Of a DNA stretch of 64,000 nucleotides, positions 452 to 64,000 are shown piece after piece. Positions within the stretch are counted from its first letter, which is position 1. Each line of letters starts with the position of its first letter. Source of the DNA: Xestospongia bergquistia (lineage: Eukaryota > Porifera > Demospongiae > Haplosclerida > Petrosiidae); assembly GCA_963965975.1 (NCBI GenBank), contig OZ014412.1, positions 498,501 through 562,500 of the forward strand, in the 5' to 3' direction. The notes below the pieces were generated by a model that ran no database searches, had not been told where the DNA came from, and saw only the letters and a program-made list of their open reading frames with translations. The position numbers were made by a program, and so were the translations under genes.

Positions 452-2396
452 ATGTCTACCTTATACTTAATACTGATTGTGATAAATATTGTATTAACTC
501 TTGTCCAAACAGTTGGTAAGTAACATCATTATTACTATTATATATAATAATATTACTGTTATATAGAGATTGTAGTTCATCCTCAATCAATCAATACCAT
601 TCTCAACTCAACAGTTTCTTTTACTTGTGAAGCTGATGTTTCTTTAATTGTTTTTGAAGTTAATAATGAGCTAGCATCTCTTAAGATTATAGAAAGCAAA
701 GGGTTTCAACAACAGTCTACAGAGACTCTCAGTGACAATAAGTGGAGAAGAGTGTTAATAGTTGAAGCATTAGAAGATAACAATAATACTAATATATCAT
801 GTAGAGCTATTGGCTCAGAGATAGCATACAGTGACATTGCTGTATTAAGAATACAAGGTGAGCTAATATTATAGATGTCATATTATATATTGATGTAGGT
901 TTACTAGCTCCTGCTAAAGATCTAACTGCTACAGTTCTCAATGGATCTAGTGTCTTACTGATGTGGTCTGCACCATATACATTGGATAATGTACCCATCA
1001 CTGGATATAACATCAATGATGATCAAGGAACACTTATAGGCTCAGTTAATACTACTGAGTACATCCTGACATCTAGTAATGATGATCCATGTAATGTAAC
1101 TACTGTATATGTCTCTGGTATTAATGGAGCTGGTATAGGAAATAGTAATAATGTCATGTACTATATTGCTAGAGGTATAGAGGTGCCTTTTAGAAAAATA
1201 AATCAGTTTATATTTTAGCTCCCAAGATTGGCTATAAACACTTATTAATATCAATAGAAACAACAGTTTATGATACAACAATATCAATGCAAGTATTTAT
1301 TGATGTAAGTATAAAGATATCATAACAATGAAAATAAACTGAATATTATTATAATATATACAGGTGAGTCATCTTTGTCCTGGAGAGTATCCTACTAGTG
1401 TAGATATTATAATAAAGAATTCTACTGGTCATATAGTACATAGTCTCACTGATGGTACATTGTCTCTTATTACTGGACACCAATTTGTTGTCAATGAGTA
1501 TATTATATTGTCTAGTAAAGTTAATATACCTATCTCAACTGAGGTTACATTCAGTAATCTTGATGGAGAATTTAATGTGTTAACAGATGTGGAGTTCAGT
1601 AAGTCTATATATTATCTCCTGTTTATTAATTGTTTGTTTTATTATAGTAACTTCAGTTAATATCAGTGTTAATAATAACAGTATTTGTATCCAATGTTAT
1701 TATATTAATAATACTACTAAATTAGGATGTCAAGTGGATCTAGTCAATGATAGTAAAGTACTTTATAGTGTCCAATTATTAAAGAATTCAACTACTAACA
1801 AAGCTAATGATTGCATAGTAAATATATCAAGTGGTTACTATGACGTCTATACATATGATATTAATGAGAATAGTACAATAAATACTGTTCCTATTGATAT
1901 CATATATCAAGTATTTGTACCTACTGAGTTGATACTACCATCATCATCAACAACAACAACAACAACAACAACAATACTACCTTCATGTAAGTATTATCTT
2001 GTGTCACTGATAACTATATATATTTCATTATAGCTCAGTCTAATCTTAGTTCTACTAAGACTTTTATTATTACTATATCAACCACTATATCAGTTATAAT
2101 AGTTGTAACAATAATTGTGGCTATAATTGTTATTATTATTATTACCGCTGTCAAGAGATCTCAACAAAGTATATATATATTCTCTTTATGTACAATATAA
2201 TGTTATTATATTATTAGGTCACAATATAACTGATAATGATGTTAACACACAAAAGAATGAAGCTTATGATATTATTGGACAGTTTAAAATGAAAATAGTT
2301 CGTAATGTATCATATGAAGATGTCACAACTCCTCCTAATAGAGCACATGATTATGTTAATGTTAGAAACAATAATGATAGGATTTGTTTTCATTAA
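452..2396 (+). CDS. R1: short-form Ig/FN3 receptor with tyrosine-rich tail
   Basis: Eight-exon model: 452-515, 567-857, 899-1174, 1219-1304, 1364-1598, 1648-1986, 2034-2168, 2218-2396. All introns are GT/AG and the model closes at 534 aa. Exon 1 is a signal peptide. Exon 2 is an Ig-like domain with cysteines in SFTCEA and NISCRA. Exon 3 is FN3 (MWSAPYTLDNVPITGYNI). Exons 4+5 form a split beta domain, and exon 6 is the membrane-proximal four-cysteine domain ending in a polythreonine stretch coded by an ACA repeat (about 1945-1977). Exon 7 is a hydrophobic helix followed by KRSQQ. The tail has AYDII, VSYEDV (fits the ITIM consensus) and DYVNV (YxN, the class of site bound by GRB2 SH2 domains). 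The exon 6-8 modules of the longer paralogues are absent. Role inferred: cell-surface recognition with tyrosine signalling; the ligand is unknown. Exons 4-6 are more divergent than in the other family members. Confidence 0.85.
1945..1977 (+). repeat. ACA trinucleotide run coding polythreonine
   Basis: About eight ACA codons in R1 just outside the membrane give a Ser/Thr-rich stalk, a likely O-glycosylated and length-variable spacer. Confidence 0.8.
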
Positions 2397-2734
2397 CTCA
2401 GTCTATCATTTCAAAATGACATAAATATTATTTCTATACTCACAATATATAAATATTATTTGATACTCAATAATTGTTCAATTAATATAGAGAACTGATA
2501 TTGCAAATAATAAAAGTTAAAATGCTCAATCTCTCTCTCTTAAGTCAATGGTCTACAAATTAAGATAATAGTGTGCTAAGATGTACATTGTGTTCCAATT
2601 ACAAGAACATGTTGTGTTTGTTTAGTAGAGGTAACTCCCTCAAGTTCATTGATCTTTGTCCTTAAAAATAGTTTATATATGTAATTAAATAAAATTGAAT
2701 ATAATGATCATTTGACACACAAAGTATTAATTAA
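2397..2734. other. Spacer between convergent R1 and R2
   Basis: Gene-free sequence between two converging 3' ends. It must hold both polyadenylation regions. I see no other structure. Confidence 0.5.
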
Positions 2735-5592
2735 CTATCTTGGTAATTGATGATCTCTCATAACAAGACCTACAATAAAGTCATATTATGTAATATATTA
2801 TAAGAGTACTTACTGTCATGATAGTTCTCAGGAGAGTCTTCTTCAATATGACCAGGTAATGGTCCTTCATTATGATATCCTATCTGGTGTTGAGGTGATA
2901 TCAATATTGGCTTTACTTCACTGGTACTGGTAAGAGAAGGAGATGTTAGTCCTCCAGTGATCTCTTTATCATTGGACGTTTGTTTGGTAGTATCTGATGT
3001 CTTGTTAGCTTTAGCTGGTATAGGAGGTGGTATATCATCATCTTGTACATTAGCTGGTATTATAGTAATATTAGGTATTGAAGGTTTTATATCATCATAA
3101 GATGGCTGGCTGGTAGAAGTTAAATAAACATCATCGACTATATTGTTGTGGTCTTCTATAGTAGTACTAGAAGATTCTAGTAGATGACGAGTATCCTCAT
3201 GACTATTATCTCTGGTAGAATGACGTGAAGTTATTATACATCCACCAGTAGGATGTGATACTGTACCATGTAGAACAACTAATCCAAAATCAGTATCTGA
3301 AACACTGATATTAGGAGGAAAATTAATTAATATAAAATTATTTATTGTACCCTGAACTTGTTCTTCCATCACTTTCAACATGTTTATCTATAGTTTTAAA
3401 ATGTTAGCACTTTATATATAATATATTAATTTACCTTGTTTGTGTTTTCTATAAAAACATATAATTATAATAATGAGTACTATAATAACACATGATACTA
3501 CTACTAGTAGTAATATAAAAATAATAATAACAGCTAAAACATCATCTAAAAAAAAAAGTAATGATATCATTTAATTAAATATAATATTAACAAACCACTT
3601 AATTTGTTTTTATTCTCTCCTCCTCTTCCTCCTCCATGTTGATTAGCTAATAAAGAGATCTTTATAATAACAAAGTGATCAATATGACATACTTGATGGT
3701 ATAAAGATGACTTCACTCCAAGCAGGTCTTGGGGCTTTATTACCATATTTATCAATATCATATACACTGATATTAGTATTATTAAATCCAGAGGGCACAT
3801 ATAGACATTGAGTCAATGTATTATTGAAATAGAAAGTATAGTTGTAGATAGATCCATTAATTGGATGTTCAAACTCAACTATACATCCCAAAGCTGAGTT
3901 ATTTTGAATGATAGTAACTTCAATACACACTCTACTAGTATTATCAACCTGACAGATGGTCACATTCTGAATACTGTGAGTAGCTATAATAATATATTAA
4001 ATATATGAGGTCAGTTAGGTTAGTAAAGGGATTTCCCCACTATATATTAACAAAGTCATCACATAATTGATTACTCACTTACAAATGTTCTTTTTAATAG
4101 TGTCTTCTCCGACAATATTAGAAAAAATGAACTGAAGAGAACAGAACTGGTACTTCTTTATCTTATACATATTATGATGATGTCCTCCAAACTCAATATG
4201 TCTCCTCATTTTATGACTAGATAGTTTGTACTTAGTAACATGTTCTCTCTGACCACACCTCCTTATAATCTTCAAATCAGTTGGAGTACAGTTCAGACAT
4301 AACTGTAACTATAAGTTTAATATAAACAATTAGTATATATAATTATGATCAACTGACCTCAGCTTGAACATGTATACAAACATGTTTATCATTACATTCT
4401 CTTACATGTACATTAGAATTAATAAATACTGGTTCTATTAGAGGAGATAATAGTTAGTGATCATAATATTAATATCCACTTACTACTTGGGAATAAGATA
4501 GTATAGTTTGATGACATACCATTTCCAGCTCCATTTACTGGTAATATGTTAATGATATATGATTCATTTAGATATGGAGCAGGCACTGATATTATAAAGC
4601 AGGTATCATTAGTAGTAATAGTATATACCATATTGTTGTATACAGAGAGAGTGATTACAAAATACATTGGTACATTATCCAGTGAAAATGGTTGCTGATA
4701 AAAGAGTTCAAAGGTGTCTGGAGTCAAGTAGTAATGATGTTTGTTAGTCACTTCATGAAGAATACCTTAATAAAAGGAGGTGATCATATGATAATATGTG
4801 TTAGCAAGTCAGAGACATTATGTAAAGACAGAGATCCATAATAGCCACATAATATTATGTACTTAGTGCTGTACAATATAATTTATTTAACATCGACCTT
4901 GTCTCACCTTGTATCTTCAACATAACTATGTCACCATCTACTGTCTTTCCATTAACAGCTCTACATGATATATTAGTATTATTGTCATCTTGTAATGCTT
5001 TAGCTGTTAATACTCTTCTAACTTTACCATTACCAAGAGTAACTTGAAAATGCTGACTAAATCCTCTGTTAACAATGTCTGAAGTAGCTGCTGAGGTATC
5101 ATTAACTCTAAAGATAATATCTTCGGCAACAGCTTCACAAGTAAAATTAACTGTTGAGTTGAGTGTGGTATTGACTGACTGAGGATTAAGTGTGATCTCT
5201 ATATAAAAATAATGATGATATACACAAATGTCTTTTAACTATAACATGGGGGCATTAAAAGCCAGATATTAGAAATAAAGTTCTCAAGAGTTTTATTGCT
5301 ATATGTAAATTAATTGATGTTATTGTTAAGGAAACTTGAAGGACAAGAATTAATCTGCCTCCATTTCTTGTCAGTAAAAAAATATGAGCTTCCAATGTTG
5401 ATATGTATCAGTTCCTCTTGAGAGTATTCTAAATATAGTAACACACTCCTAAGACTTATAATCAGGCAGTTTTTAGTCAATTACATGACAACATTATACT
5501 TCTTTCTATCTTTATACTACATATATTTGGTAATAGAACTTACCAACTGTATGAACAATAATAAATAATGTCATCACTGTAAGTATCTCCAT
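2735..5592 (-). CDS. R2: divergent short-form Ig/FN3 receptor, tail C
   Basis: Minus-strand exons: 5544-5592 (signal peptide), 4908-5198 (Ig-like), 4484-4765 (FN3), 4358-4434 and 4083-4308 (split beta domain), 3693-3983 (membrane-proximal domain), 3435-3545 (transmembrane helix, then FYRKHKQ), a tail exon ending at 2814, and 2735-2769 (C-terminus SLVMRDHQLPR). The ectodomain is the most divergent here and, as in R1, lacks exons 6-8. The tail exon carries PSYDDI, one NVQDDDIPPPIPA unit, GYHNE and ENYHD. Problem: the transmembrane exon ends in phase 1, and the obvious acceptor (exon from 3387) then puts the long tail out of frame, giving about 16 residues and a stop (about 458 aa). An internal acceptor (exon from 3371) restores the family tail (639 aa). 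The phase-1-to-0 adapter exon of the paralogues is missing. The gene could be frame-damaged or alternatively spliced. Confidence 0.75.
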
Positions 5593-5941
5593 ATTGACTA
5601 TAAGAATATATAAAATATCACATAATGTATATCACTGTTGAAACACACATACACACACACACGCTATCTATAACACACGACTAACCTACCCATGATGTCA
5701 GAGACGATGGTTTGAAGTTGTATATTGAGGCTAAAAAGAGAACGTCGCTTAACAAAAAATTAATAATACTATAATAATTAATAACTTATTCATTTTGGGG
5801 GCGTAAGAACTCTACTAGTTGTTAGCACTTATGAAGATATTCTACTTCAAATGATTGATGTATGTAGCTTGTTGATCCATTTGTGTTTAAATGTTTATTT
5901 ATATATTTATTGAATATATATCCTTTGTGTGTAGTATTGAG
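5593..5941. promoter_or_regulatory. Probable bidirectional promoter of R2 and R3
   Basis: Only 349 bases separate the start codons of two divergent receptor genes, so both promoters must lie here or overlap the first exons. It contains a short AC dinucleotide run (about 5648-5662). Inferred from arrangement only. Confidence 0.5.
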
Positions 5942-8402
5942 ATGTCTTCTATCTTGCCACTGATACTAATTCTGATAATATCTACTTCATCAGTTCTTGT
6001 TCATACAGCTAGTAAGTATCAAAAAATTATTATAATCACTATTAACATATTGTTACACAGATATTACAGTTCATCCTCAGTCAGTGAATACTACTCTCAA
6101 CTCAACAGTTAATTTTACTTGTGAAGCTATTGCTGATACTATTATCTTTCGAGTTAATAATGTCTCGGCAGCTAATGTAAAAGTTGTTAACAAAGGATAT
6201 ACTCAACAACCACAAGACCCTCTCAGTGGTGGTATAAAGAGAAGAGTGTTATTAGCTAAAGCACTAGTTGACAACAATAATACTAATATATCATGTAAAG
6301 CTATTAATTCAGAAAATGTATTCAGTGATATTGCTGTATTAAGAATACAAGGTGAGCTAATGTTATAGATGTCATATTATTATAATATATTAATGTAGGT
6401 TTACTAGCTCCTGTTAAAGATCTAACTGCTACAGTTCTCAATGGATCTAGTGTGTTACTGATATGGTCTGCACCATATACATTGGATAATGTACCTATCA
6501 CTGGATATAACATCTATGATGATCAAGGAACACTTATAGATACAGTTAATACTACTGAGTACATTGTAACATCTAGTAATGATGATCCATGTAATGTAAC
6601 TACTGTATATGTCTCTGGTATTAATGGAGCTGGTATAGGAGATAATAATCTTATTATGTACTATATTGTTAGAGGTAACACATTTCAATATTTAGTGATA
6701 GTATAAATTGTTTATCATTGATTTCTTCTTTTTCTTTCAGTTCCTCAAACTGTTCAAGTATCAGTTGTTCCAAATGTAGAGGGAAATATTACTTTATTCA
6801 ATGTGTTTATCAATGTCAGTTTAATAGTATAATATGTATATTATAACTAATAGATCCATAGATATTATAATGTACATCATTTGTTTAATTAATATATCAG
6901 ATTGTCTTCTCATACACTAGGTCAGTGGTCTATGTTTCGGTGAGTATCCTACTAATGTTATAGTAAATATCAAGGACTCTAATGATGTTCTACAACAAAC
7001 ATTATCTCATAATGTGACACTGTCTTTAGTTAATAATCAACTGATAATAGTTAATATATCATCACCTGTTAACTTGAGGACATATCTTGTTGAGGTAACT
7101 CTTAGTAATCCAGCTGGACAGTTTGATCATACTATCAATGTATTTCAATTTGGTAAGTTATATATCACATGTTATGTTGTGTGTATGTATTATCTCTTGT
7201 ATGAGACAGGTTTTCTTACTTCTGTTCTCAATATCTCTTCATCACTTGACAACTGTACTACTATTACTCTCAGTTGGGATCGTCCTAATGTAGACAGTAG
7301 AGTCCAGATATCTTACTATATACTACTGATATATGATGATGTCAACAAGATGTTATTACAAAATGTATCTATTAATGGAAATGAATACAAGTATGAAGAT
7401 GAGGAATTATTTCGTCATCGATATACATATACCATATATGGTATAAATGAACTGGGTGAAGGAGAACATAACAATAGTACCTTCTCTTTTCAAAGAGGTT
7501 AGTTAAAATAACTAATATGTGTGTTTATTTTATCATGTCATTTTAGCTCCAAGATCTGCTAAAGAAAATACTACATTTACTATTCTATCCTATATAAATA
7601 ATGAAGTCAACTTGATGTTTAATATACCAGTGAGTCTATCCAATAGTAGTTACTATATGATTATCATAGTTACTGTAGATTATTCTGGAATGTTCATCTG
7701 AAGCTCCAGAGAATGCTACAGTCACTGTACAATGTGATAATGTAGTTATATTTAATAAAATATATCTAGTAGAATTTTCAAGTCAAATTATGAACATAAC
7801 AGATAATCAACTTCTGCCAGCCCCTCAAAATCAACTCTGTAGTTTGTCTATTATCTTCAGTAATAATGCTGGACACAGTGATCCATTGATGTTTGATTTA
7901 AGTAAGAGATACTAAACATACAAAGACTAATATCTCATTTCTATATTGTAGATATCTCCAATATTAGAGATGCCACTCCCACTATTCAATCCCAATCTAT
8001 CCTACTGGTCATGCCATCTTCCACTAATGGATTATCAAAACATGAATCTTTAAGTTCTGCTAGTATGATAACAATTATAATTAAATATTTATATGTATAA
8101 CTTCTCTTTCTCTAGTTATAATAGTTACCATTATGATCATCATTAGTATCTTAATAATACTAATTATCTCCAGTGTTTGTGTGGGTGTTTATTATATAAA
8201 GAAGATACACAGTATGTATATCATGTATAGATGTAATATAATATAATTATATTATATTATAGAGTGTAATAGTATTGATGATGATATAACTATACAACAT
8301 AATATATCATATGAAGATACTAAACAATATCAGATAAAATTGACACGGAATACATCTTATGAACTTGTTACAATAACACCTGATTATGTTGATATCATTT
8401 GA
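5942..8402 (+). CDS. R3: long-form Ig/FN3 receptor without the exon-9 domain
   Basis: Eleven exons: 5942-6011, 6061-6351, 6399-6674, 6741-6814, 6921-7152, 7210-7497, 7547-7629, 7679-7901, 7952-8062, 8116-8211, 8263-8402. The model closes at 627 aa. Order: signal peptide, Ig-like domain (NFTCEA...NISCKA), FN3 (IWSAPYTLDNVPITGYNI), split beta domain (5/6 kb end VSGLCFGEYPTN), FN3 (LSWDRPNVDSRV), split domain of exons 7+8 (ECSSEAPENATVTVQC), then a unique Ser/Thr-rich linker in place of the four-cysteine domain. A 25-residue helix ends in YYIKKIH. The tail has ISYEDT, KQYQI, TSYELV and DYVDII at the C-terminus, so four tyrosines in about 45 residues. The Ig exon resembles R2, its divergent neighbour. 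Likely a signalling cell-surface receptor; the ligand is unknown. Confidence 0.88.
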
Positions 8403-8882
8403 ACATAATTATTATTGTAATAATTTAGTTTGATAATATACCAAATACATGGATTGTTTAAAAGATTATAATAAAACTATTACTAAATTATAAAGTGACA
8501 GTTTTTATGTCTTCGGTCAGTGATAATAAAGTATTATAATCTAACATGTGACTATTATAACTATATGATATTGTATTTCATCATCTACTGTGATATTATA
8601 TATCATAGTAGATGATGATATATATCAGATATTTGTCTATTTTTATAAGATAATGTACTACACAAGTAACACAACATATGTAATACTATCAATATTGATA
8701 TTACAATAATCATGGAAGAAAGAAAACTATTTACATTAATATTTGCTATAAATTGAACTCCATCAATTTTTCTTCACTTTATATAAGCATTGAATATTAT
8801 TGAGATGGATGTTAAAGATGATTTATTAACAATAATAGTAATATTAATGATAATAGTAATAGTAATGATAATAATGATAGTG

Positions 8883-8933
<51 letters not shown>

Positions 8934-10683: not shown

Positions 10684-13538
10684 TTAGAGTTGGGTCTGAG
10701 AAAACCGTGTGGATATGGTATTTGATGATTTATCAACTGATGCTTCAGTTGATAAATCATCATGGGAAGTAGGTGGATTTAGAGTTTGAGATTTTTTTTC
10801 TGTTTTTAGATTAGAAGAGACATCAGATGATGAAGACACATTATATCGATTGCCTATGAACAAACATTAGTAGAATATCAGTGATATCAATAAAAATATA
10901 TAAACTAACTTTGTTTCAGTTTAGAATAGTTATAAATACATGTAATTATAACAATTAAAATCGTTGTTATAATGATAATAAATATAAGAGATGAAACAAC
11001 AACAACAAATGTAACTAAATAAGGAATTAAAATCAACATTAATATGATTGAAAAATAATTGTTTTACTTATGAAAGATGTTGTTGCACTGCCAGGAGGTA
11101 ATGATGCAATTATTATAACTATGGGTAAGTAAACAAATTAATGAACATATTTCGTTATTAACTCACTTGTAGTAGTTGGTAATATATCAGTTATTATAAT
11201 ATCTCTTAATATTATAGCTGGTAATATTGATGTTAGTGGTATATCATTCTCCACATCATATACATAGACTGTATAATTACCAGCTGGGAGATTATCAATA
11301 CAACCTTGTACAGAAACATCACTTGGACTGTTTTTAATAAATGTTTTGTTCATTGAGGTCACTCCAATCACACTAACATAACATGACTTAGCAGATGGAG
11401 CAGATGAAAATACACACTCCACACATATAGAATTACCATTAGGGTAAGCAGTAGCATTTATAACATCATATGTACCTATATCATATAATAATATCAATAT
11501 ATTACATAATATCACTATCTCTTACTTAAAGTATGTATCAATGGATCACTGTGTCCAGCATTATTAATGAATGTAATAAAGAGGATACATTGATGATGTT
11601 GAGGGACCAACAGATTATCTGTTATGTTCATAGGTTGACTTGAATATTCTATCAGATATATTTTATTAAATATAACTACATTATCACATTGTACAGTGAC
11701 TGTAGCATTCTCTGGAGCTTCAGATAAACATTCCAGAATAATCTACAGTAACTATGATAATTATATAGTAACCACTATTGGATAGACTCACTGGTATATT
11801 AAACATCAACTTGACTTCACTATTTATATAGGACAGAATAGTAAATGTAGTATTTTCTTTAACAGATTTTGGAACTAGATGACATCATAAAATAAACACA
11901 CATATTAGTTATTTTAACTAACCTCTTTGAAAAGAGAAGGTACTATTGTTATGTTCTCCTTCACCCAGTTCATTTATACCATATATGGTATATGTATATC
12001 GATGACGAAATAATTCCTCATCTTCATACTTGTATTCATTTCCATTAATAGATACATTTTGTAATAACATCTTGTTGACATCATTATATATCAGTAGTAT
12101 ATAGTAAGATATCTGGACTCTACTGTCTACATTAGGAGGATCCCAACTGATAGTAATAGTAGTACAGTTGTCAAGTGATGAAGAGATATTGAGAACAGAA
12201 TTAAGTAAACCTGTCTCATACAAAAGATAATACACACACACAATATAACTTGTGATATATAACTTACCAAATGGAAATACATTGATAGTATGATCAAACT
12301 GTCCAGCTGGATTACTAAGAATTACCTCAACAAGATATGTCCTCAAGTTAACAGGTGATGATATATTAACTATTATCAGTTGATTATTAACTAAAGAGAG
12401 TGTCACATTATGAGATAATGTTTGTTGTAGAACATCATTAGAATCCTTGATATTTACTATAACATTAGTAGGATACTCACCAATACATAGACCACTGACC
12501 TAGTATATGAAATATAAAAACAAGACTTATTATAAATGAATTGACATAATAAGATAATTAAACACTATATATAGTAGTATACACATATAACTAACATTTA
12601 TTAATACTTGAAATAAAACAATAGTTTTAACTACTGTTGGGATGATTGATATATATACTTGAGTGTCTGGAACTAAAGTAGAATGAAACACAATAATTGT
12701 ACTTAAATGATTATGCATACCTCTAACAATATAGTACATGATATTATTACTATCTCCTATACCAGCTCCATTAATACCAGAGACATATACAGTAGTTACA
12801 TTACACGGATCATCATTACTAGATGTCAGGATGTACTCAGTAGTATTAACTCTGTCTATAAGTGTTCCTTGATCATCATTGATGTTATATCCAGTGATAG
12901 GTACATTATCCAATGTATATGGTGGAGACCACATCAGTAAGACACTAGATCCATTGAGAACTATAGCAGTTAGATCTTTAACAGGAGTTAGTAAACCTAC
13001 ATTAATATATCATAATAATATGACATCTATAACATTAGCTCACCTTGTATTCTTAATACAGCAATGTCACTATTTATATTCACAGGTGAACCATATGCTA
13101 TACATGATATATTAGTATTGTTATTATCTTTTAAGCCTTTAGCTAATAACATTCTTCTCAGTTTACCACCATTAATAAGATATGCAGGTTGCTGAGTAAA
13201 TCCTTTATTTACAACATCTGATGTATCTGCTGAACTATCATTTACTTGAAAGTCAATCAGATCAGCAACACCTTCACAAGTAAAACTAACTGTTGAGTTA
13301 AGAGTGGTATTGACTGACTGAGGATGAACAGTAATCTCTGTATAAATAGAATACATCATTGAGTAGTGAAGATATTGAAAGTATGTTGTTATTAGTCTCA
13401 TCCTCAGACATGTACAAGTAGGAAAAACTATTTGTAATATTCCTCTATTGGTCTGAGTAGATACTTACCAGCTGAGTGGACAAAAACTCGAACAATACAT
13501 ATCGTCATCACAGTCATTAAGTGTAAGGTAGACATCAT
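10684..13538 (-). CDS. R4: long-form Ig/FN3 receptor, tail B
   Basis: Twelve exons from the start: 13469-13538, 13044-13337, 12721-12996, 12596-12672, 12268-12499, 11923-12210, 11792-11874, 11526-11742, 11167-11475, 11068-11118, 10910-11014, 10684-10853. The model closes at 723 aa with GT/AG throughout. Order: signal peptide of the class with MSTLHLMTV, Ig-like domain (SFTCEG...NISCIA, no tryptophan between the cysteines), FN3, split beta domain, FN3, split domain, four-cysteine domain (ICVECVF...SCYV...GCID), a 17-residue stalk, a helix rich in Val/Ile and a short Ser/Thr-rich tail ending FSQTQL. The tail has one tyrosine (RYNVS) and no ITIM or proline repeat. It may be a decoy or signal through a partner (inference). 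It is a duplicate of R6 and lies head to head with R5. Confidence 0.9.
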
Positions 13539-15276: not shown

Positions 15277-18200
15277 ATGCTGTTTATCTTGTTCACTGTG
15301 ATAATATCTATTATTGTAGATGTCCAATCAGTTGGTAAGTGTCATTATGTGATTACTGTGATTACATCAATATTATATAGAGATTATAGTTCATCCTCAG
15401 TCAGTCAATACAACTCTCAACTCAACAGTTAGTTTTACATGTGAAGCTGTTGCTATTCTGATTGACTTCAGAGTCAATGATATGTCACTATCTATATCTA
15501 AAACAAATATTACTAACAGAGGATTTACTCAAGAACCACAAGATCTGCTCAGTGGTGGTATTAAGGAAAGAGTGTTATTAGCTAAAGCATTTGAAGACAA
15601 TAATAATACTAATATATCATGTAGAGCTTATGGCTCAATGAGTATAGACAGTGACATTGCTGTATTAAGAATACAAGGTGAGCTAATGTTATAGATGTCA
15701 TATTATTATGATATATTGATGTAGGTTTACTAGCTCCTGTTAAAGATCTAACTGCTACAGTTGTCGATGGATCTAGTGTGTTACTGATGTGGTCTGCACC
15801 ATATACATTGGATAATGTACCTATCACTGGATATAACATCAATGATGATCAAGGAACACTTGTAATCACAGTTAATACTACTGACTACATTTTGACATCT
15901 AGTAATGATGATCCATGTAATGTAACTACTGTATATGTCTCTGGTATTAATGGAGCTGGTATAGGAGATAGTAATAATGTCATGTACTATATTGTTAGAG
16001 GTAATATATTATGTTATACAGTGATGATGTTATATTTCTGTTATATTTCAGTTCCTCAAACTATTCCAGTATCAGTTATAGCAACAACAGAGAAAGACAA
16101 TGTTTTATTTAAAGTTTATATTGATGTCAGTCAGTGATATTGTGACACAAGCATTTCTTATGTTGGCAGTGTTGTAATTGTTTATACAACATACTATATA
16201 GGCTAACAAGAACTGAATATGTAATACTATGATAAACATTATGTACTATATAATTATAGTAATACTAGAGAGATAAAAGCTACTTCATATATTAATGAAA
16301 GCATTAATATGTTATTTTTATTCAACTAATTTGTACAGCATACATTAGTTGATAACTATGGAATCTAAAGCATTTACTCTATAATTTGTTAGCTTGTAAT
16401 AGTACAACATACCACATAAAATATTCACTGAGATCATGTAAATTTATCCTGTGTGTTATGCCTGCAAAGAAAACATTTTTTGGTCTATGATTAAAAGTGT
16501 CCTTACTATAATAATATACTATAGTATATAATTTTAAAGATATAATTCTTTAGATGACTAAACAATTATATTTTTAGAATTATATACTATAGTCTATTAT
16601 TATAGTAAGGACACTTTTAATCATAGACCAAAAAATGTTTTCTTTGCAGGTATAACACACAGGATAAATTTACATGATCTCAATATGTACTTTGTGTAAA
16701 ACATTTATAATATATTTTTATTTGTCATTGTATGATGGTTACCATTTATCACTATCTACACTAGGTCAGTGGTCTATGTATTGGTGAGTATCCTACTAAT
16801 GTTACAGTAAATATCAAGGACTCTAATGATGTTCGACAACAAACATTATCTCATGATGTGATGCTGTCTTTAGTTAATAATAAACTGATAATAGTTAATA
16901 TATCATCACCTATTAACTTGAGAACATATCTTGTTGAAGTAACTCTTAGTAATCCAGCTGGACAGTTTGATCATACTATCAATGTATTTCCATTTGGTAA
17001 GTTATATATTACATGTTATGTTGTGTGTGTATTATCTCTTGTATGAGACAGGTTTTCTTACTTCTGTTCTCAATATCTCTTCATCACTTGACAACTGTAC
17101 TACTATTACTATCAGTTGGGATCGTCCTAATGTAGACAGTAGAGTCCAGATATCTTACTATATATTATTGATATATGATGATGTCAACAAGATGTTATTA
17201 CAAAATGTATCTATTAATGGAAATGAATACAAGTATGAAGATGAGGAATTATTTCATCATCGATATACATATACCATATATGGTATAAATGAACTAGGTG
17301 AAGGAGAACATAACAATAGTACCTTCTCTTTTCAAAGAGGTTAGTTATAATAACTAATATGTGTGTTTATTATATGATGTCATTTTAGCTCCAAGATCTG
17401 CTAAAGAAAATACTACATTTACTATTCTGTCCTATATAAATAATGAAGTCAAGTTGATGTTTAATATACCAGTGAGTCTATCCAATAGTGGTTACTATAT
17501 GATTATCATAGTTATTGTAGATTATTCTGGAATGTTCATCTGAAGCTCCAGAGAATGCTACAGTCACTGTACAATGTGATGATGTAATTATATTTAATAA
17601 AACATATCTGATAGAATATTCTATGAACATAACAGATAATGTGTTAGCCCCTCAACATCAACAGTCTAGTCTCTCTATTATCTTCAGTAATAATGCTGGA
17701 CACAGTGATCCATTGATACATACTTTAAGTAAGAGATAGTGATATTATGTAATATATTGATATTATTATATGATGTAGGTACATATGATGTTATAAATGC
17801 TACTGCTTACCCTAATGGTAATTCTATATGTGTGGAGTGTGTATTTTCATCTGCTCCATCTGCTAAGTCATGTTATGTTAGTGTGATTGGAGTGACCTCA
17901 ATGAACAAAACATTTGTTAAAAACAGTCCAAGTGATCTTACTATACAAGGTTGTATTGATAATCTCTCAGGTGGTAATTATACAGTCTATGTATATGATG
18001 TTGAGAATGATATACCACTAACATCAATATTACCAGCTATAATATTAAGAGATATTGTAATAAATGATACATTACAAATTATTACTACAAGTGAGTTATA
18101 ATACTAGTTAAAACAGTCTGTTAACTTGCAATATTTATTTAGAAATACTCACGATCACATTATTAACTACAGATGGGATAACAATTGCAACAAAATCTCA

Positions 18201-18730
18201 AAATATTTCTAGTATATAACACAATATTATATTCTTATAATTATATCTGTCCTCCATCTTCCTTTATTTATTATTACTCCTACTGTAATTATTTACATTA
18301 TACCAAGTTATTCTACAATAGTCATACCATCAATTAATACAATAACAGTACCTGGATCTCAAAGTTGTCTTAGTATGATTATTTAATAATTATTATAATT
18401 AAATATTATTATATATTTCTTCTCTCTCTAGTTATAATTGTTACCCCTGTGGTCAGTATCTTAATAATTTTAATGGTACTTATTGTTTTCAGTGTTTTTG
18501 TAGTTGTTTATTATAAAAAGAAAAGACAAAGTATGTCTATATATGTATTTATATAATATAATATAATTAATATTCATATAGAGTCTGATGTTATAATTGC
18601 TCAACATAATCCAGCATACGAAGATCTCAGACAATATCAAACACCAATAGTCTTGAATCAGAACACAGTTTATGGTCTTGTAATTAGAAAAAACAATAAT
18701 ACAATACCTGATTGTCTGACTAACATCTAA
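15277..18730 (+). CDS. R5: long-form Ig/FN3 receptor, tail A
   Basis: Exons: 15277-15334, 15381-15677, 15725-16000, 16052-16125, 16765-16996, 17052-17339, 17389-17471, 17521-17728, 17779-18090, 18143-18211, 18432-18530, 18582-18730. The model closes at 714 aa. Order: signal peptide MLFILFTVIISIIVDVQSVG, Ig-like domain of the matching class (NDMSLSISKTNITNRGF), FN3, split beta domain, FN3, split domain, four-cysteine domain, stalk, transmembrane helix and YYKKKRQ. The tail has NPAYEDL (an NPxY PTB-type site), QYQT and TVYGLV. Intron 4 is unusually long (639 bases) and contains a 105-base-arm inverted repeat. A stalk exon present in R8 (39957-40061) has lost its AG acceptor here near 18275. It is phase 1 at both ends, so skipping it keeps the frame. 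Near-duplicate of R8. Confidence 0.88.
16429..16682. repeat. Inverted repeat in R5 intron 4
   Basis: The arm at about 16429-16533 is the near-perfect reverse complement of about 16578-16682, with about 45 bases between them. R8 has only the right-arm sequence at the matching place (about 38260-38340), so the left arm is an added inverted copy. Confidence 0.9.
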
Positions 18731-49375: not shown

Positions 49376-52300
49376 TTACAATGATATTGTTCTGTTTTGG
49401 ACCAAAAATGAAGTATTAAGTATATCAGAGTACAATACTCTATCAAAAGATTGGGGAGGAGCTTGAGGTCGATTTTTAGAAAATTGCTGAAGTTCTTGAT
49501 AAACAACTGTTTCTTTTTTCTACCCAATAAAATAATATTATATACAATCTCTTAATATTAATATTACTTCAATAGAAGCTGGACTCTCTTCTATTTCAAT
49601 ACTCTTAGTATATGACAGTGGTTGAGGACTGTCAGTCTCTTCTTTTGCTATAGACATCTCAAAAGATGTTATTGGCTGAACACTGACGATCTACAATATT
49701 AATAATAATAGTAATATTAGTAATGTATTATATAATAACTTACTGATAGTCTATTATCAGCTGATGAATTAACAGCATAGGATACAATTTCAATATATTG
49801 TTATCAGAACATAATATTACTTAACTTACTCTTCTTGTTCCTTTTCTTCCTATACCACAGTATGCAACAACAACAACAACATAGTAATAGGCATAATAAT
49901 ATGATAACTCCACCCACAACAGAAACAACATAATACACTATTATATTATAAATAATATGATAGTCATTAAACAATTTATTTACATGTTAATGATGTAGTT
50001 GATAGTGTTGAATCCACAGAAAACATTGGTGTTGTCATGGTAACTACATAATGTTATAATATCATAATGTCAAGGAAAGTTAACATGTCATATATCTTAT
50101 CATATTCATAATAACTATGTAATAAAAAGTTGTATAACTTACTTGTAGTGGATAATATATCAGTTATTATAATATCTCTTAATATTATAGCTGGTAATAT
50201 TGATGTTAGTGGTATATCATTCTCCACATCATATACATAGACAGTATAATTACCAGCTGGGAGATTATCAATACAACCTTGTACAGTAAGATCACTTGGA
50301 CTGTTTTTAATAAATGTTTTGTTCATTGAAGTCACTCCAATTACACTAACATAACATGACTTAGCAGATGGAGCAGATAAAAATACACACTCCACACATA
50401 TAGAATTACCATTAGGGTAAGCAGTAGCATTTATAACATTATATGTACCTATATCATATAATAATATCAATATATTACATAATATCACTATCTCTTACTT
50501 AAAGTATGTATCAATGGATCACTTTGTCCAGCATTATTACTGAAGATAATAGAGAGAGTACAGAATTGATGTTTAGGAGCTGACAATTGTTGATTATCTG
50601 TTATGTTCATAGGTAGACTTGAATATTCTACCAGATATGTTTTATTAAATATAACTACATCATCACATTGTACAGTGATTGTAGCAATCTCTGGAGCTTC
50701 AGATGAACATTCCAGAATAATCTACAGTAACTATGATAATCATATAGTAACCACTATTGGATAGACTCACTGGTATATTAAACATCAAGTTAACTTCATT
50801 ATTTATATAGGACAGAATAGTAAATGTAGTATTTTCTTTAGCAGATCTTGGAGCTAAAATGACGTTATAAAATAAACACACATATTAGTTATTTTAACTA
50901 ACCTCTTTGAAAAGAGAAGGTACTATTGTTATGTTCTCCTTCACCCAGTTCATTTACACCATATATGGTATATGTATATCGATGACGAAATAATTCCTCA
51001 TCTTCATACTTGTATTTATTTCCATTAATAGATACATTTTGTAATAACATCTTGTTGACATCATCATATATCAGTAGTATATAGTAAGATATCTGGACTC
51101 TACTGTCTACATTAGGAGGATCCCAACTGATAGTAATAGTAGTACAGTTGTCAAGTGATGAAGAGATATTGAGAACAGAAGTAAGAAAACCTGTCTCATA
51201 CAAGAGATAATACACACACACAACATAACATGTGATATATAACTTACCAAATGGAAATAGATTGATAGTATGATCAAACTGTCCAGCTGGATTACTGAGA
51301 GTTACCTCAACAAGATATGTCCTCAAGTTAACAGGTGATGATATATTAACTATTATCAGTTGATTATTAACTAAAGAGAGTGTCACATTATGAGATAATG
51401 TTTGTTGTAGAACATCATTAGAGTCCTTGATATTTACTATGACATTAGTAGGATACTCACCAATACATAGACCACTGACCTAAGAGATGAATAAAATTTC
51501 TTATAATTATAAAAACAAACTGTCTTTAGTTTTAGCAGCACAAGCTACAGTGCTATAATGTGATATCAAAATAAAAGTAGTGGTGCATTATATAGACAAT
51601 ATATTACTGAATACTTGTATACTATGAACGCACATTGATGAAGACATGAAAGGAAATAATGTCTTCTTTTGTTGTTGGAACAATTGACACTGGAAGAGTT
51701 TTAGGAACTAAATTTTTTCTAAAATAATGGACATCCATTTGTACCATAAAATATACCTCTAGCTATATAGAACACGACATTATTACTATCTCCTATACCA
51801 GCTCCATTAATACCAGAGACATATACAGTAGTTATATCACAGTAGTTACCAGTCAGGATATACTCAGTAGTATTAACTCTGTCTAGAAGTGCTCCTTGAT
51901 CATCATTGATGTTATATCCAGTGATAGGTACATTATCCAATGTATATGGTGCAGACCACATCAATAACACACTAGATCCATTGAGAACTGTAGCAGATAG
52001 ATCTTTAACAGGAGCTAGTAAACCTACATCAATATATCATAATAATATGACAACTATAACAATAGTTCACCTTGTATTCTTAATAAAGCAATGTCACTAT
52101 CTATACTCATTGAGCCATAAGCTTTACATGATATATTAGTATTATTGTTGTCTTCAAATGCTTTAACTAATAACACTCTTCTCTTTATACCACCACTGAG
52201 AGAGTCTTGTGGTTCTTGAATAAATCCTCTGTTTGTAACATTTGTTTCCAATATAGATAGTGACATATAATTGACTCTGAAGTCAATCAGAATAGCAACA

Positions 52301-52471
52301 GCTTCACATGTAAAATTAACTGTTGAGTTGAGAGTAGTATTGACTGACTGAGGATGAACTGTAATATCTGTATATGATTGTAATAATCATGATAATGAAA
52401 TAATGACACTTACTGACTGATTGGACATCTATAATAATAGATATAATCACAGTGAGCAGGATAAACAGCAT
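49376..52471 (-). CDS. R10: long-form Ig/FN3 receptor with tandem ITIM tail
   Basis: Exons from the start: 52414-52471, 52071-52367, 51757-52023, 51634-51707, 51248-51479, 50903-51190, 50771-50853, 50499-50721, 50143-50448, 49984-50043, 49830-49937, 49744-49760, 49568-49690, 49376-49519. The model closes at 759 aa. Signal peptide and Ig class as R5/R8 (MLFILLTVIIS; NRGFIQEPQDSL). FN3 loop TGNYCDI. The helix contains six consecutive cysteines (LLLCCCCCCILWY) before RKKRNKK, so palmitoylation is possible. A very short adapter exon (17 bases) uses an internal AG. The last exon carries VVYQEL and VLYSDI, both fitting [ILVS]xYxx[ILV], 23 residues apart around a PQAPPQ stretch. By analogy with SHP-recruiting receptors this suggests an inhibitory receptor (inference). 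Duplicate of R11. Confidence 0.92.
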
Positions 52472-53906: not shown

Positions 53907-55310
53907 TTATAAGTATGTAGTAGTATTATTATCTCTTGGTAACTGATGATCTCTCATAACAAGACCTACAATAAAGTCATAATATGTAATATATTATAAG
54001 AGTACGTACTGTCATGATAATTCTCAGGAGAGTCTTCTTCAATAAGACCAGGTAATGGTCCTTCATTATGATATGCTATCTGGTGTTGAGGTGATATCAA
54101 TATTGGCTCTACTTCACTGGTATTGGTAAGAGATGATGTTAGTCCTCCAGTGATCTTTCATTGTTGAATGTTTGTTTGGTAGTATCCGATCATCTTGTAC
54201 ATTAGCTGGTATAGGAGGTGGTATATCATCATCTTCTACATTAGCTGATGTTATAGTAACACTAGGTAATGTTTGCTTTGTATCATTATAAGATGGAGGA
54301 TGTTGTTCTGTTTTTGGTGGAAAACGATGTATATTATTATATACCACTTTATTACTAAATGAGGGAGGATCTTGAGGTCACTTTTTAGAAAATTCCTGAA
54401 GTTTTTGACAAACAACTGTTTCTTTTTTCTACACAATAAAATCAAATTACATACAATCTCTTAATATTATTATTACTTCAATAAAAACTGCACTCTCTCC
54501 TATTTCTACACTCTCAGAACTCTTAGTATATGTTATTGACTGAACACTATCAATCTATAATATTAATAATAATATTAATAATGTATTATATAATAACTTA
54601 CTGATAGTCTATTATCAACATAATGTTAATAAATTATCATCATTATTTTTATTGTTTTCTATGAACAATATTAATACAATATTATAACTAAATTAACTCA
54701 CTTTTCTTCCTATAATATAGTACACAACTAAAAGATGTTATGATCACTATAATAACTCCATCCCACCGCCAACACCAACACCAACACCAATAATCACTAT
54801 TATATTATAAATAATATAGTAGTTATTAAAAAATATACTTACATATTGGTGGTGTTGATTTAGTTGATAATGTTGTACTCACAGTATTAATTGGTGTAGC
54901 CATGGCAACTATATAAATTAATCAGAATAGGCAAAACAAATTAATGTGGAATACATTCCATTGTGTTTCATAATAACAATACAATGAAATGTTGTACTTA
55001 CTTGTAGTAGCTGGTAATATATAAGTTATTACAATATCTCTTAATATTATAGCTGGTAATATTGATGTTCGTGGTATATCATTCTCCACATCATATACAT
55101 AGACTGTATAATTACCAGCTGGGAGATTATCAATACAACCTTGTATAGTAAGATCACTTGGACTGTTTTTAACAAATGTTTTGTTCTTTGAAGTCACTCC
55201 AATCACACTAACATAACATGACTTAGCAGATGGAGCAGATGAAAATACACACTCCACACATATGGAATTACCATTAGGGTAAGCAGTAGCATTTATAACA
55301 TCATATGTAC
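53907..55310 (-). pseudogene. Truncated tail-C receptor
   Basis: Only the 3' half of a family gene remains: four-cysteine exon (55002-55310), stalk (about 54840-54910), transmembrane exon (about 54700-54800), adapter exon (about 54602-54660), phase-0 exon (about 54470-54556), tail exon (54010-54428) and C-terminal exon (53907-53965). Exons 1-8 are absent; exon 8 homology fades just upstream of 55310. The adapter exon has a one-base frameshift. The tail exon has a TGA where paralogues have Arg/Gln codons (after EFSKK, about 54378-54380) and its length is off by one. The first ITIM tyrosine is Cys (VVCQKL). A broken partner of R11, inside the 7.4 kb tandem duplication. Confidence 0.88.
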
Positions 55311-55415
55311 CTATATCATATAATAATATAAATATATTACATTATATCATTATCTCTTATGTATTAATGGATGACTTTGTATTTATGTATCTTGAAAATA
55401 GTTCACATCTAGATC
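55311..55415. other. Breakpoint region of the truncated receptor
   Basis: Receptor homology ends shortly after 55310 in this short AT-rich stretch, next to an unrelated protein-like fragment. Confidence 0.5.
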
Positions 55416-56784: not shown

Positions 56785-59700
56785 TTACAATGATATTGTT
56801 CTGTTTTTGACCAAAAATGAAGTATTAAGTATATCAGAGTACACTATTCTATCACAAGATGGGGGAGGAGCTTGAGGTTGATTTTTAGAAAATTGCTGAA
56901 GATCTTGATAAACAACTGTTTCTTTTTTCTACAAAATAAAATAATATTATATATAATCTCTTGATGTTATTATTACTTCAGTAGACACTGCACTCTCTTC
57001 TATTTCAATACTCTTAGTATATGATAGTGACTGAGGACTGTCAATCTCCTCTTTCGCTATAGACATCTCAAAAGGTGTTAATGGCTGAGTACTGTTAATC
57101 TATATAATTAATAATAATAGTAATATTAGTAATGTATCATATAATAATTTACTGATATTCTATTATCAGCTGATGAGTTAACAGCATAGGTTCCTATGAA
57201 TAGTTCCAATGAAATGTTATCAGAACATAATATTAATTAACTCACTCTTCTTGTTCCTTTTCTTCCTATACCATAATATGCAACAACAACAACAACATAG
57301 TAATAGACATAATAATATGATAGCTCCACCCACAACAGAAACAAGATAATACACTATTATATTATAAATAATGTGATAGTAATTAAACAATTTATTTACA
57401 TGTTAATGATGTAGTTGATAGTGTTGAATCCACAGAAAACATTGGTGTTGTCATGGTAACTACATAATGTTATAATATCATAATGTCAAGGAAAGTTAAC
57501 ATGTCATATATCTTATCATATTCATAATAACTATGTAATAAAAAGTTGTATAACTTACTTGTAGTGGATAATATATCAGTTATTATAATATCTCTTAATA
57601 TTATAGCTGGTAATATTGATGTTAGTGGTATATCATTCTCCACATCATATACATAGACAGTATAATTACCAGCTGGGAGATTATCAATACAACCTTGTAT
57701 AGTAAGATCACTTGGACTGTTTTTAACAAATGTTTTGTTCTTTGAAGTCACTCCAATCACACTAACATAACATGACTTAGCAGATGGAGCAGATGAAAAT
57801 ACACACTCCACACATATAGAATTACCATTAGGGTAAGCAGTAGCATTTATAACATCGTATGTACCTATATCATATAATAATATCAATATGTTACATAATA
57901 TCACTATCTCTTACTTAAAGTATGTATCAGTGATACAAAGTATGTATCACTCTGTCCAGCATTATTACTGAATATAATAGAGAGAGTACAGAGTTGATGT
58001 TGAGGAGCTAACAGACTATCTGTTATGTTCATAGAATTTTCTACCAGATATGTTTTATTAATTATAACTACATCATTACATTGTACAGTGACTGTAGCAT
58101 TCTCTGGAGCTTCAGATGAACATTCCAAAATAATCTACAGTAACTATGATAATCATATAGTAACCACTATTGGATAGACTCACTGGTATATTAAACATCA
58201 AGTTGACTTCATTATTTATATAGGACAGAATAGTAAATGTAGTATTTTCTTTAGTAGACCTTGGAGCTAAAATGACATGATAAAATAAACACACATATTA
58301 GTTATTTTAACTAACCTCTTTGAAAAGAGAAGGTACTATTGTTATGTTCTCCTTCACCCAGTTCATTTACACCATATATGGTATATGTATATCGATGACG
58401 AAATAATTCCTCATCTTCATACTTGTATTCATTTCCATTAATAGATACATTTTGTAATAACATCTTGCTGACATCATCATATATCAGTAGTATATAGTAA
58501 GATATCTGGACTCTACTGTCTACATTAGGAGGATCCCAACTGATAGTAATAGTAGTACAGTTGTCAAGTGATGAAGAGATATTGAGAACAGAAGTAAGAA
58601 AACCTGTCTCATATAAGAGATAATACACACACACAACATAACATGTGATAAATAACTTACCAAATAGAAATGATGAATTGTCAAACTGTCCAGCTGGATT
58701 ACTAAGAATTACATCAACAAGATATGTCCTCAAGTTAACAGGTGATGATATATTAACTATTATCAGTTGTTTATTAACTAAAGACAGTGTTACATCATGA
58801 GATAATGTTTGTTGTAGAACATCATTAGAGTCCTTGATATTTACTGTAACATTAGTAGGAAACTCACCAATACATAGACCACTGACCTAAGAGATGACGA
58901 AAAACAATTATACTATAAAATTAAACGTCTTTAGTTTTAGCAGTGCAAGCTATACTGGTATAATGTGATATCAAAACATAAGTAGTGGTGCATTATATAG
59001 ACAACATATTACTGAATACTTGTATATTATAAACTAACATTGATGAACACTTGAAGTGAAATGATGTTTTCTTCTATTGTTGGAACAACTGACACTGGAA
59101 GTGTTTTAGGAACTAAAATTTAACTAAACTAATGGAAATCCATTTGTACCATAAAATATACCTCTAGCAATATTGAACATGACATTATTACTATCTCCTA
59201 TACCAGCTCCATTAATACCAGAGACATATACAGCAGCTACATTACAAGCTTCTAGTAGGTACGCAGTAGTATTAACTGTGTCTATAAGACTTCCTTGATC
59301 ATCATTGATGTTATATCCAGTGATAGGTACATTATCCAATGTATATGGTGCAGACCACATCAGTAACACACTAGATCCATTGAGGACTGTAGCAGTTAGA
59401 TCTTTAACAGGAGATAGTAAACCTACATCAATATATTATAATAATAATATGACATCAATAACTTTAGTTCACCTTGTATTCTTAATACAGCAATGTCACT
59501 ATCTATATTCATTGAGCCATAAGCTCTACATGATATATTAGTATTATTATTGTCTTCAAATGCTTGAGTTATTAGCACTCTTCTCTTAATACCACCACTG
59601 AGAGAATCTTGTAGTACTTGAGTAAATCCTCTGTTAGTAATATTTATTTTAGTTACAGATAGTAACATATCATTGACTCTGAAGATAACCACATTAGCAA

Positions 59701-59876
59701 CAGCTTCACATGTAAAATTAACTGTTGAGTTGAGAGTAGTATTGACTGACTGAGGATGAACTGTAATATCTGTATATGATTGTAATAATCATAATAATCA
59801 AATAATGACACTTACTGACTGATTGGACATCTACAATAATAATAGATATAATCACAGTGAGCAAGATAAACAGCAT
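56785..59876 (-). CDS. R11: long-form Ig/FN3 receptor with tandem ITIM tail
   Basis: Exons from the start: 59816-59876, 59473-59769, 59162-59422, 59039-59112, 58661-58886, 58316-58603, 58184-58266, 57915-58134, 57559-57864, 57400-57459, 57246-57353, 57153-57193, 56977-57099, 56785-56928. The model closes at 763 aa. Same plan as R10, with one extra Ile in the signal peptide. The FN3 loop is shortened (AYLLEACNVAAVYV). Exon 8 carries a short in-frame duplication (SDTYFVSLIHTL). The split domain has FDNSSFLFG instead of FDHTINVFPFG. The helix has the same polycysteine run. The adapter exon uses the canonical acceptor, unlike R10. The tail has VVYQDL and IVYSDI (both ITIM consensus) 23 residues apart around PQAPPP. 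Predicted inhibitory-type signalling receptor (inference from motif). Confidence 0.92.
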
Positions 59877-59969
59877 CTTTCTGACTACTATTATAATAAC
59901 AAAATAATACATGATTATATAGCTGGATTATAAGCTATTTTGTATAATGTATAGTACTACTTAGTTGTC
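59877..59969 (-). promoter_or_regulatory. Conserved upstream block of R11
   Basis: The reverse complement contains ACTAAGTAGTACTATACATT, as upstream of R5, R8 and R10. Confidence 0.5.
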
Positions 59970-62523: not shown

Positions 62524-64000
62524 CTATAAGTATGTAGTAGTAATATTATCTCTTGATAACTGATGATCTCTCATAACAAGACCTACAATAAAGTCATATT
62601 ATGTAATATATTATAAGAGTACTTACTGTCATGATAGTTCTCAGGAGAGTCTTCTTCAATATGACCAGGTAATGGTCCTTCATTATGATATCCTATTTGG
62701 TGTTGAGGTGATACCAATATTGGTTCTACTTCACTGGTATTGATAAGAGAAGGAGATGTTAGTCCTCCAATGATCTCTTTATCATTGGACATCTGTTTAG
62801 TAGTATCTGATATCTTGTTAGTTTTAGCTGGTACAGGAGGTGGTATATCATCATCTTGTACATTAGCTGGTATAGGAGGTGGTATATCATCATCTTGTAC
62901 ATTAGCTGGTATAGGAGGTGGTATATCATCATGTTGTACATTAGCTGGTATTATAGTAACACTAGGTATTGATGGCTCTATATTATCATAAGATGAAGGA
63001 TGTTGTTCTGTTTTTGGTGGAAAATGAAGTATATCACTATATACTACTTTATTACTAGATGAGGAAGGAGCTTGAAGTTGCTTTTTAGAAAATTCCTGCA
63101 GATCTTGATGAACAACTTTTTCCTCTTTCTATGAAGATTATAATAATATAATTATATTATTATATTAATGTATGTCATAATTAACCTTATCATCATGATC
63201 ACAAGCTTCTATTAATTCATGAGTCCTATTTCTCTCAAAAGATGTTTTAGATAGACCTCGATCTCTCTATAACATTAGTAATATCAATATTATGTATGAT
63301 ATTAACTTACTAATGGTCTATTTACTAAATAAACTCTATATTGTCCTAAGAAAAGATATATTAATAGTATTATAGAGTGTATATAAATTTACTTTTCCAT
63401 TTATAGACTCCAACTACTACTATAAAGATAATGATAATAATAACAAGTACAACTAATGGAACTACAGTAGCAACAATTATAACTAAATGAATAATAAAGA
63501 TATTAAAATTTTGAAACAAATGCTTGTCTTACTAGGAAAAGCTTCCTTTGTTATTATTCCACCAGTAGTAGGAGATGATGTCACTGTTATAACTATATAT
63601 TGGTAAACAATGAACACGCTGTGTTAAATTTTAACTTACTCGCAGTAGATATATCAGCTATTACAATGTCTGTTAATAGTATTGTTATTAACTCACTTGT
63701 TGTAGTTGGTACTATATCAGTTATTATAGTATCTCTTAATATTATAGCTGGTAATATTGATGTTAGTGGTATATCATTCTCCACATCATATACATAGACT
63801 GTATAATTACCAGCTGGGAGATTATCAATACAACCTTGTACAGTAAGATCATTTGGACTGTTTTTAACAAATGTTTTGTTCATTGAAGTCACTCCAATTA
63901 CACTAACATAACATGACTTAGCAGATGGAGCAGATGAAAATACACACTCCACACATATAGAATTACCATTAGGGTAAGCAATAGCATTTATAACATCATA
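62524..64000 (-). CDS. R12: tail-C receptor, 5' part beyond the window
   Basis: Partial gene. Visible exons: four-cysteine exon (63640 or 63697 to beyond 64000), stalk 63533-63592, transmembrane 63393-63482, adapter 63311-63345, phase-0 exon 63186-63266, tail exon 62627-63128, C-terminal exon 62524-62582. The helix is followed by YKWKS-like basic residues. The tail has KVVYSDI (ITIM consensus), SSYDNI, about three NVQDDDIPPPIPA units, GYHNE, ENYHD and SLVMRDHQLSRDN. The first ITIM position is His (VVHQDL). The four-cysteine exon has two in-frame donors 57 bases apart, both phase 1. The exon 9 start would fall about four bases beyond the edge. No break in the visible part. Confidence 0.88.
62826..62942 (-). 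repeat. Three 39-base units coding the proline-rich repeat
   Basis: In-frame tandem units (NVQDDDIPPPIPA type, outer copies with PPPVPA or QHDD variants) in the R12 tail exon, followed by a partial unit. Confidence 0.95.

Follow-up and report, generated by a model that had tools for sequence, protein, structure and literature searches.

The window discussed here is a 64,000-nucleotide stretch of contig OZ014412.1 from the sponge Xestospongia bergquistia (C2:498501-562500 in our numbering), and it holds a cluster of genes for predicted type I receptors with immunoglobulin (Ig) and fibronectin type III (FN3) domains. There are 12 seemingly intact genes and two remnants, g7 and g12. Receptor modules were mapped by tblastn (E about 3e-6, for E6 of g1, to 3e-65 for the ectodomain modules) and exons chained at GT-AG borders with our own script; the genome searched comprises 146.46 Mb in 21 contigs. 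Eleven genes (g1-g6, g8-g11 and g13) have the distal Ig exon inside the window in spliced GT-AG models, and retain open frames and splice sites across 8-15 predicted exons. The twelfth, g14, is cut by the window edge and has its remaining exons in the adjoining sequence. The scan left out the transmembrane (TM) exon in six of the 11 genes (g2, g3, g4, g6, g11 and g13), and the gap between ectodomain and tail was searched separately for TM exons; one with splice sites is present in all 12 genes. The modelled exon borders are partly off, as at the FN3 end in g1, g5 and g8. Automatic gene models of a 264-kb stretch (C2:428501-692500) ran past gene ends and served only for g14 and for TM segments, not for counts.

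The modules follow one order: signal peptide, Ig (one exon), FN3, Ig-like (two exons with a phase-0 intron between them), a second FN3, a further Ig-like module of two exons, a membrane-proximal domain with a conserved Cys that we call E6, a Ser/Thr stalk, the TM segment and the tail. Introns as modelled are mostly phase 1 and short, the largest being about 640 bp (g5). The earlier note on this DNA had described a receptor gene cluster with a common exon order and nearly the same extracellular exons. The cluster and its exon order are borne out; the near identity applies to the ten genes of the long form, which have a common module set, except that g3 has no recognisable E6 exon. It does not extend to g1 and g2, which are of a shorter divergent form without the second FN3/Ig-like block, and in which E6 is only 28% identical to that of g8.

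The note also had at least four unrelated kinds of tail. The tails do differ, but they fall into three groups, since the Pro-repeat tails and those with tandem immunoreceptor tyrosine-based inhibitory motifs (ITIMs) are homologous and form one series, in which both motifs are kept or lost copy by copy. The first group has YEDx/YxxPhi motifs. It includes g1 (452..2396, plus strand), with signal peptide, Ig, FN3, Ig-like, membrane-proximal domain, Ser/Thr stalk and TM, and a tail of type YED_A spaced YDII-x12-YEDV-x9-YVNV. The others are g3 (5891..8402, plus), with long-type ectodomain exons, a TM exon at 8116-8211 and a YED_B tail (YEDT, YELV, YVDI), and two long-form genes with YED_C tails, g5 (15277..18730, plus; YEDL and YGLV, with NPAY) and g9 (37079..40416, plus; YEDP and YGLV). 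Ser-rich tails are found in the long-form genes g4 (10684..13538, minus; TM exon 10910-11014, tail exon 10684-10853 without YxxPhi) and g6 (24112..26924, minus; TM exon 24332-24433). The remnant g7 (29229..30700, ends approximate, minus) has an FN3 exon with an in-frame stop and what is left of a Ser-type tail.

The ITIM/Pro series includes g8 (31183..34526, minus), a long form with PPPIPA repeats, no strict ITIM and a last exon that may be spliced on, and g10 (42972..46207, minus), a long form with one strict ITIM (IVYADI). Two long forms have the tandem pair: g13 (56785..59912, minus; TM exon 57246-57353) has VVYQDL and IVYSDI in exon 56785-56928, and g11 (49376..52471, minus; TM exon 49830-49937) has VVYQEL and VLYSDI in the frame 49519-49376, which is taken as the last exon by analogy with g13, the scan having spliced onward instead. 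The part of g14 in the window (62583..64000, running beyond it, minus; TM exon 63393-63482) is the 3' part of a long form with the ITIM VVYSDI, SSYDNI and Pro repeats. In g10 and g14 the first site of the ITIM pair is lost, with F and H respectively for Y, and the second is retained. The remnant g12 (53975..55311, minus) consists of a membrane-proximal exon and an ITIM/Pro tail with a stop, and has no distal exons. The divergent short form g2 (2735..5592, minus; TM exon 3435-3545) has a Pro-containing tail with YDDI and no strict ITIM.

In 28 tail frames from the 264-kb stretch there are 37 matches to the strict consensus [ILVS]xYxx[ILV], against 8.5 +/- 2.8 (maximum 18) in 500 shuffles. The frames are kin, so the excess reflects conservation of the motif and not independent origin; some of them take in intron sequence and at least four hold a stop. 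The full tandem pair is present in 11 of the 28. On the other side, seven of nine distinct plus-strand YED_A frames have YxxI-x12-Yxx(V/I), a spacing that is merely like that of an immunoreceptor tyrosine-based activation motif (ITAM). Tail type goes with strand: YED tails are on the plus strand in 12 genes and on the minus strand in two, and ITIM, Pro or Ser tails on the plus strand in none and on the minus strand in 24, in a gene list from which fragments, stray tail pieces and genes lacking a tail match were dropped, as was one plus-strand Ser match judged to be an artefact. This association is probably one of orientation inherited during duplication.

The sharing of ectodomains between tail types is clearest in g9, which has a YEDx tail and is on the plus strand, and g11, with tandem ITIMs and on the minus strand. 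Their homology comes in two blocks. The first (80% over 1.9 kb) starts 960 bp before the ATG, in fragments taken from about 1000 bp ahead of it, and covers signal peptide, Ig and FN3; the second (93% over 1.4 kb) reaches from the Ig-like module to the E6 exon. Beyond ten bases past the E6 donor the alignment found no homology downstream. Their Ig exons are 87% identical in protein. The alignment of g9 with g8 starts only just before the Ig exon, and there are thus two upstream/signal-peptide types, while g11 and g13 align throughout. When Ig exons are grouped at 80% protein identity there are five groups, and four of them mix YED with ITIM, Pro or Ser tails (tail labels assigned by hand); one includes g5 and g9 with YEDx tails, g11 and g13 with tandem ITIMs, and -578036 with an ITIM/Pro tail. 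The top match of Ig exons across strands is +535682/-578036, at 96% in DNA.

Comparison of exon distances among 20 long genes (12 for the ITIM exon) indicates that the exons have had separate histories. Copies of the Ig exon differ by a mean DNA distance of 0.19 and those of the ITIM exon by 0.17, against 0.03-0.10 in the remaining ectodomain exons. The Mantel correlation of Ig exon distances is 0.02 with FN3, -0.20 with Ig-like, -0.02 with FN3b, -0.03 with E6 and 0.03 with the ITIM exon. When the Ig exon is split as a control, its halves correlate at r 0.81 and its odd and even codons at 0.75, and it therefore acts as a block. The odd/even control gives 0.74 for FN3, 0.65 for Ig-like and E6, 0.28 for E5 and -0.07 for FN3b. 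The halves control fails for FN3 (-0.03), Ig-like (0.19), FN3b (-0.13) and E6 (-0.17), and gives 0.33 for E5. FN3b is thus uninformative on exchange, and the FN3, Ig-like and E6 exons may be internal patchworks. Between g1 and four long genes intron 2 is 93-98% and FN3 89-97% identical, the Ig exon 74-79%, and Ig-like and E6 62-69%. Gene conversion or unequal exchange would be a simple reading of these decoupled histories. We also looked at head-to-head neighbours, whose Ig exons match with a mean rank of 8.5 of 25 where 13 would be expected (p 0.006), with four of the 16 in first place, in a test that includes fragments and has a null that ignores local duplication. We give this little weight, as the close pairs +504560/-503406 and +442997/-442145 rank 19 and 12.

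The cluster is real and far larger than the window. Among the best 150 of 343 candidate E6 matches in the genome, 146 are on C2. At least 33 full-length matches are 90% or more identical, plus one 45-residue piece, and at least 28 of these are at C2:440-768 kb and at least five at 1.89-2.37 Mb; the remaining matches recovered are more distant, most of them between 2.7 and 4.4 Mb of C2. All 51 matches to a composite ITIM/Pro tail query are on C2. The cluster thus covers at least C2:440-768 kb, with relatives across several Mb of the chromosome. Two YED_A genes at C2:635567-637465 and C2:645782-647680, 10,215 bp apart, have identical Ig exons and are either a recent duplication or an assembly duplicate. 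One of the distant relatives, at C2:4029467-4034000, is followed by frames with YSTL repeats; a death-like domain suspected by eye near it had no Pfam match at E<=0.1 and was dropped.

SHP-type phosphatases are the enzymes that read ITIMs, and the genome has an expanded set of them. A search for SH2 domains gave 81 matches, and frames were read from five stretches taken out of these (C3:1265376-1283582, C3:916176-917741 and C7:8317893-8319749 span loci L009-L013). There are at least seven intact single open frames of 520-618 residues with two SH2 domains followed by a protein tyrosine phosphatase (PTP) domain. Six are on C3, where there are also two fragments, and one is on C7; five of the frames are within one 18-kb stretch. 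Pfam finds two SH2 stretches and PTP in six full frames, and the seventh spans two loci and was entered in part. For both of the frames compared the best PDB match is PTPN11 (E 1e-196 and 5e-152). In all seven the PTP loop has kept its Cys and Arg, and a pair of FLVR-type arginines is present; two have WPE for WPD. The layout is that of SHP-1 and SHP-2 (PTPN6 and PTPN11), and the sponge set differs in the grouping of its frames, mostly on one contig, and in the WPE variants. Elsewhere, the stretch C6:1622265-1697212 has ten SH2 matches, in open frames 398-500 residues long, which are perhaps a kinase or adaptor expansion.

The best AlphaFold model of the Ig exon is a beta sandwich with a mean predicted local distance difference test (pLDDT) score of 82.1, the other four being at 35-43. 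Among solved structures, I-set domains from PTP-delta and Lrig3 come nearest to it (E about 1e-4), closely followed by many antibody V domains. The best Pfam Ig score on the g8 Ig exon is that of Ig_3, at 15.2 bits and under the cut-off of 30; the predicted fold does favour Ig. The E6 exon also gives a beta sandwich (pLDDT 80.6 for the best model, 37-46 for the others), with only weak FN3 and Ig-like matches. Pfam fn3 scores 41.6 bits in g8, in two stretches, and 21.5 bits in g1, under the cut-off of 25.

Some other features of the window and genome may be recorded here. A GC-rich (48%) reverse transcriptase frame at window 19340-22180 (PF00078, E 1e-13) lies behind a receptor remnant with an E5 exon at 19.5 kb, and the large intron of g5 has, by eye, a long inverted repeat at 16430-16690 that is perhaps a small transposon. 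There is a long array of FN3 exons at C5:326266-337311 with a repeat about every 449 bp. An animal-type mitochondrial cox1 can be read in the assembly with TGA as Trp; this, the short introns and the genome size of 146 Mb would suit a demosponge. Broken cox1-like copies with stops at C6:3154917-3200446 are probable nuclear copies of mitochondrial DNA.

With regard to known systems, the vertebrate paired receptors (KIR, LILR, PIR and SIRP) are type I Ig receptors encoded in clusters; their ectodomains are nearly identical, their tails differ, and ITIMs are present in one series. The sponge genes resemble them in all of these respects, with similar ectodomains on different tails in g9 and g11 and in the mixed Ig groups, and at the sequence level the strict ITIM consensus, in tandem in g11 and g13. 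They differ in having an Ig plus FN3 stem and no charged TM residue for an ITAM adaptor, and the members without ITIMs have distinct tails, either with tyrosine motifs or rich in Ser. The likeness to KIR and LILR is drawn here at the level of architecture; the nearest solved folds are the I-set domains named above. In the available text of PMC12065747, candidate allorecognition receptors of Hydractinia and Botryllus bear ITIM- or ITAM-type motifs. The Hydractinia Alr complex of that account is, like the sponge cluster, a group of neighbouring genes for Ig-like TM proteins of type I that bear ITIM-type motifs, in an animal of an early lineage; the comparison is by description, and the sponge genes differ in their FN3 modules and Cys-containing membrane-proximal domain. 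The Botryllus FcoRs described there, encoded at one locus, are also type I Ig receptors that have either an ITIM or another kind of tyrosine motif, but they have V-Ig, sushi and C2-Ig domains, and belong to a chordate in which the locus is genetically tied to allorecognition. For sponges, the available part of PMC11999971 links Ig proteins to adhesion and recognition, and has the aggregation factor and Ig-containing adhesion molecules as self/nonself candidates; the aggregation factor is, however, an extracellular proteoglycan complex and not an ITIM receptor. In the open-access literature we found no report of such receptors in sponges at the level of titles and abstract openings, with preprints and most subscription papers outside that search. 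The words immunoglobulin, fibronectin and phosphatase do not occur in the main text of an Amphimedon graft transcriptome paper as available (PMC5450542), and ITIMs are unmentioned in the available text of an Antarctic sponge transcriptome with 20 Ig-like and 7 FN3 domains (PMC12723187) and of an allorecognition review (PMC12018476).

We think it probable that this is a large multigene family of paired-type cell-surface receptors in which the same kinds of head are common to different tails. The paired-receptor reading of the earlier note is partly upheld, by the clustered type I receptors, the alternative tails, the ITIM series and the SHP set; activation through the non-ITIM tails would be conjectural. 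In the mechanism we would propose, the distal Ig domain, I-set-like and the most variable ectodomain exon, would be the likely ligand-binding head and the FN3 and Ig-like modules a more uniform stem. Variation (entropy) in the Ig exon is highest in three stretches, one following the first Cys, one midway and one following the second, and we infer that these could be binding loops. The same kind of head would be borne by receptors with different tails: the ITIM series, once phosphorylated, would recruit the SHP-type phosphatases and inhibit, and the YxxPhi/NPxY-like or Ser-rich tails would signal otherwise, being perhaps activating, adaptor-coupled or adhesive. Exchange between gene copies would hold the stem uniform and re-assort heads with tails.

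Several observations weigh against this reading. The exon models are ab initio, with predicted splices only, and the confident AlphaFold model is one of five for each of the Ig and E6 exons; for E6 Foldseek gave no match below 1e-3. None of the 12 window genes has a charged residue in the 19-residue TM core, and the window thus lacks the activating arrangement of vertebrates. Six of the 28 related tail frames have no strict ITIM, and the ITIM matches are conserved sequence and putative sites. In the distance comparisons the Ig exon does follow E5 to a slight degree (r 0.25, p 0.03), and the failed halves and odd/even controls make FN3, Ig-like, FN3b, E6 and E5 less informative. On trees that ignore recombination, dN/dS (the ratio of nonsynonymous to synonymous change) by counted changes comes to 0.82 in the Ig exon and 0.74-1.00 in the remaining ones, and pairwise estimates by exon are 0.64-0.95. 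Site-wise diversifying selection on the head, which we had considered, is given up, as two of 98 codons have p<0.05 for excess replacements with about five expected by chance, and 14 of the 98 for purifying selection. Nothing in these sequences thus points to strong diversifying selection among the paralogues.

Adhesion molecules typically have FN3/Ig stems, and the genes might encode adhesion or matrix receptors with neutral tail variants, the ITIM matches being fortuitous in a repetitive Pro-rich tail. The dN/dS values, the loss of motifs in several copies and the varying number of Pro repeats would agree with this, but the tandem pair in 11 of 28 frames and the motif count far over that of shuffles (in related, non-independent copies) argue otherwise, as does the expansion of SHP genes, and we consider it unlikely. 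Far less probable still is an array of recent tandem duplicates that is in decay and has scant function: the remnants g7 and g12, the stops in some tail frames and the two YED_A genes about 10.2 kb apart (C2:635.6 and 645.8 kb) are what one would point to, and against them stand the eleven window genes still open over all their predicted exons.

Two readings concern what such receptors would be for. They could be germline-diversified immune sensors of microbes or symbionts, the same head occurring in an inhibitory and a non-inhibitory version, a reading for which the many paralogues, decoupled exon histories, tail alternatives and heads common across strands can be adduced; this is quite possible without being probable, strong diversifying selection on the heads having no sign here. 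The same absence of an excess of diversifying sites between paralogues tells against an allorecognition (fusion/rejection) complex, in which Ig-head alleles would be matched between individuals and the ITIM and non-ITIM tails would determine what follows, on the model put forward for Hydractinia Alr and Botryllus FcoR. It has for it the clustering on one chromosome, the variable Ig head, the ITIM series and the many paralogues, and also that the Hydractinia and Botryllus receptors with ITIM/ITAM-type motifs are located in allorecognition loci; the sponge candidate cited in the same source, in its available text, is the aggregation factor, a different molecule (PMC12065747). By analogy it is conceivable, and we hold it as a doubtful option.

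We return to the family of paired-type receptors. In its fullest form, which we offer tentatively, the cluster would be a sponge histocompatibility-type complex, with exchangeable Ig heads re-assorted onto ITIM and non-ITIM tails that are read by an expanded SHP family, and ITIM-based self/nonself signalling would be placed at the base of the animals. The cluster supplies concrete genes for graft, expression and binding tests. A sponge ITIM receptor cluster together with an SHP expansion would carry the convergence seen in Hydractinia and Botryllus into one of the first branches of the animal tree, and points to a possible origin of paired on/off receptors in very early animals.

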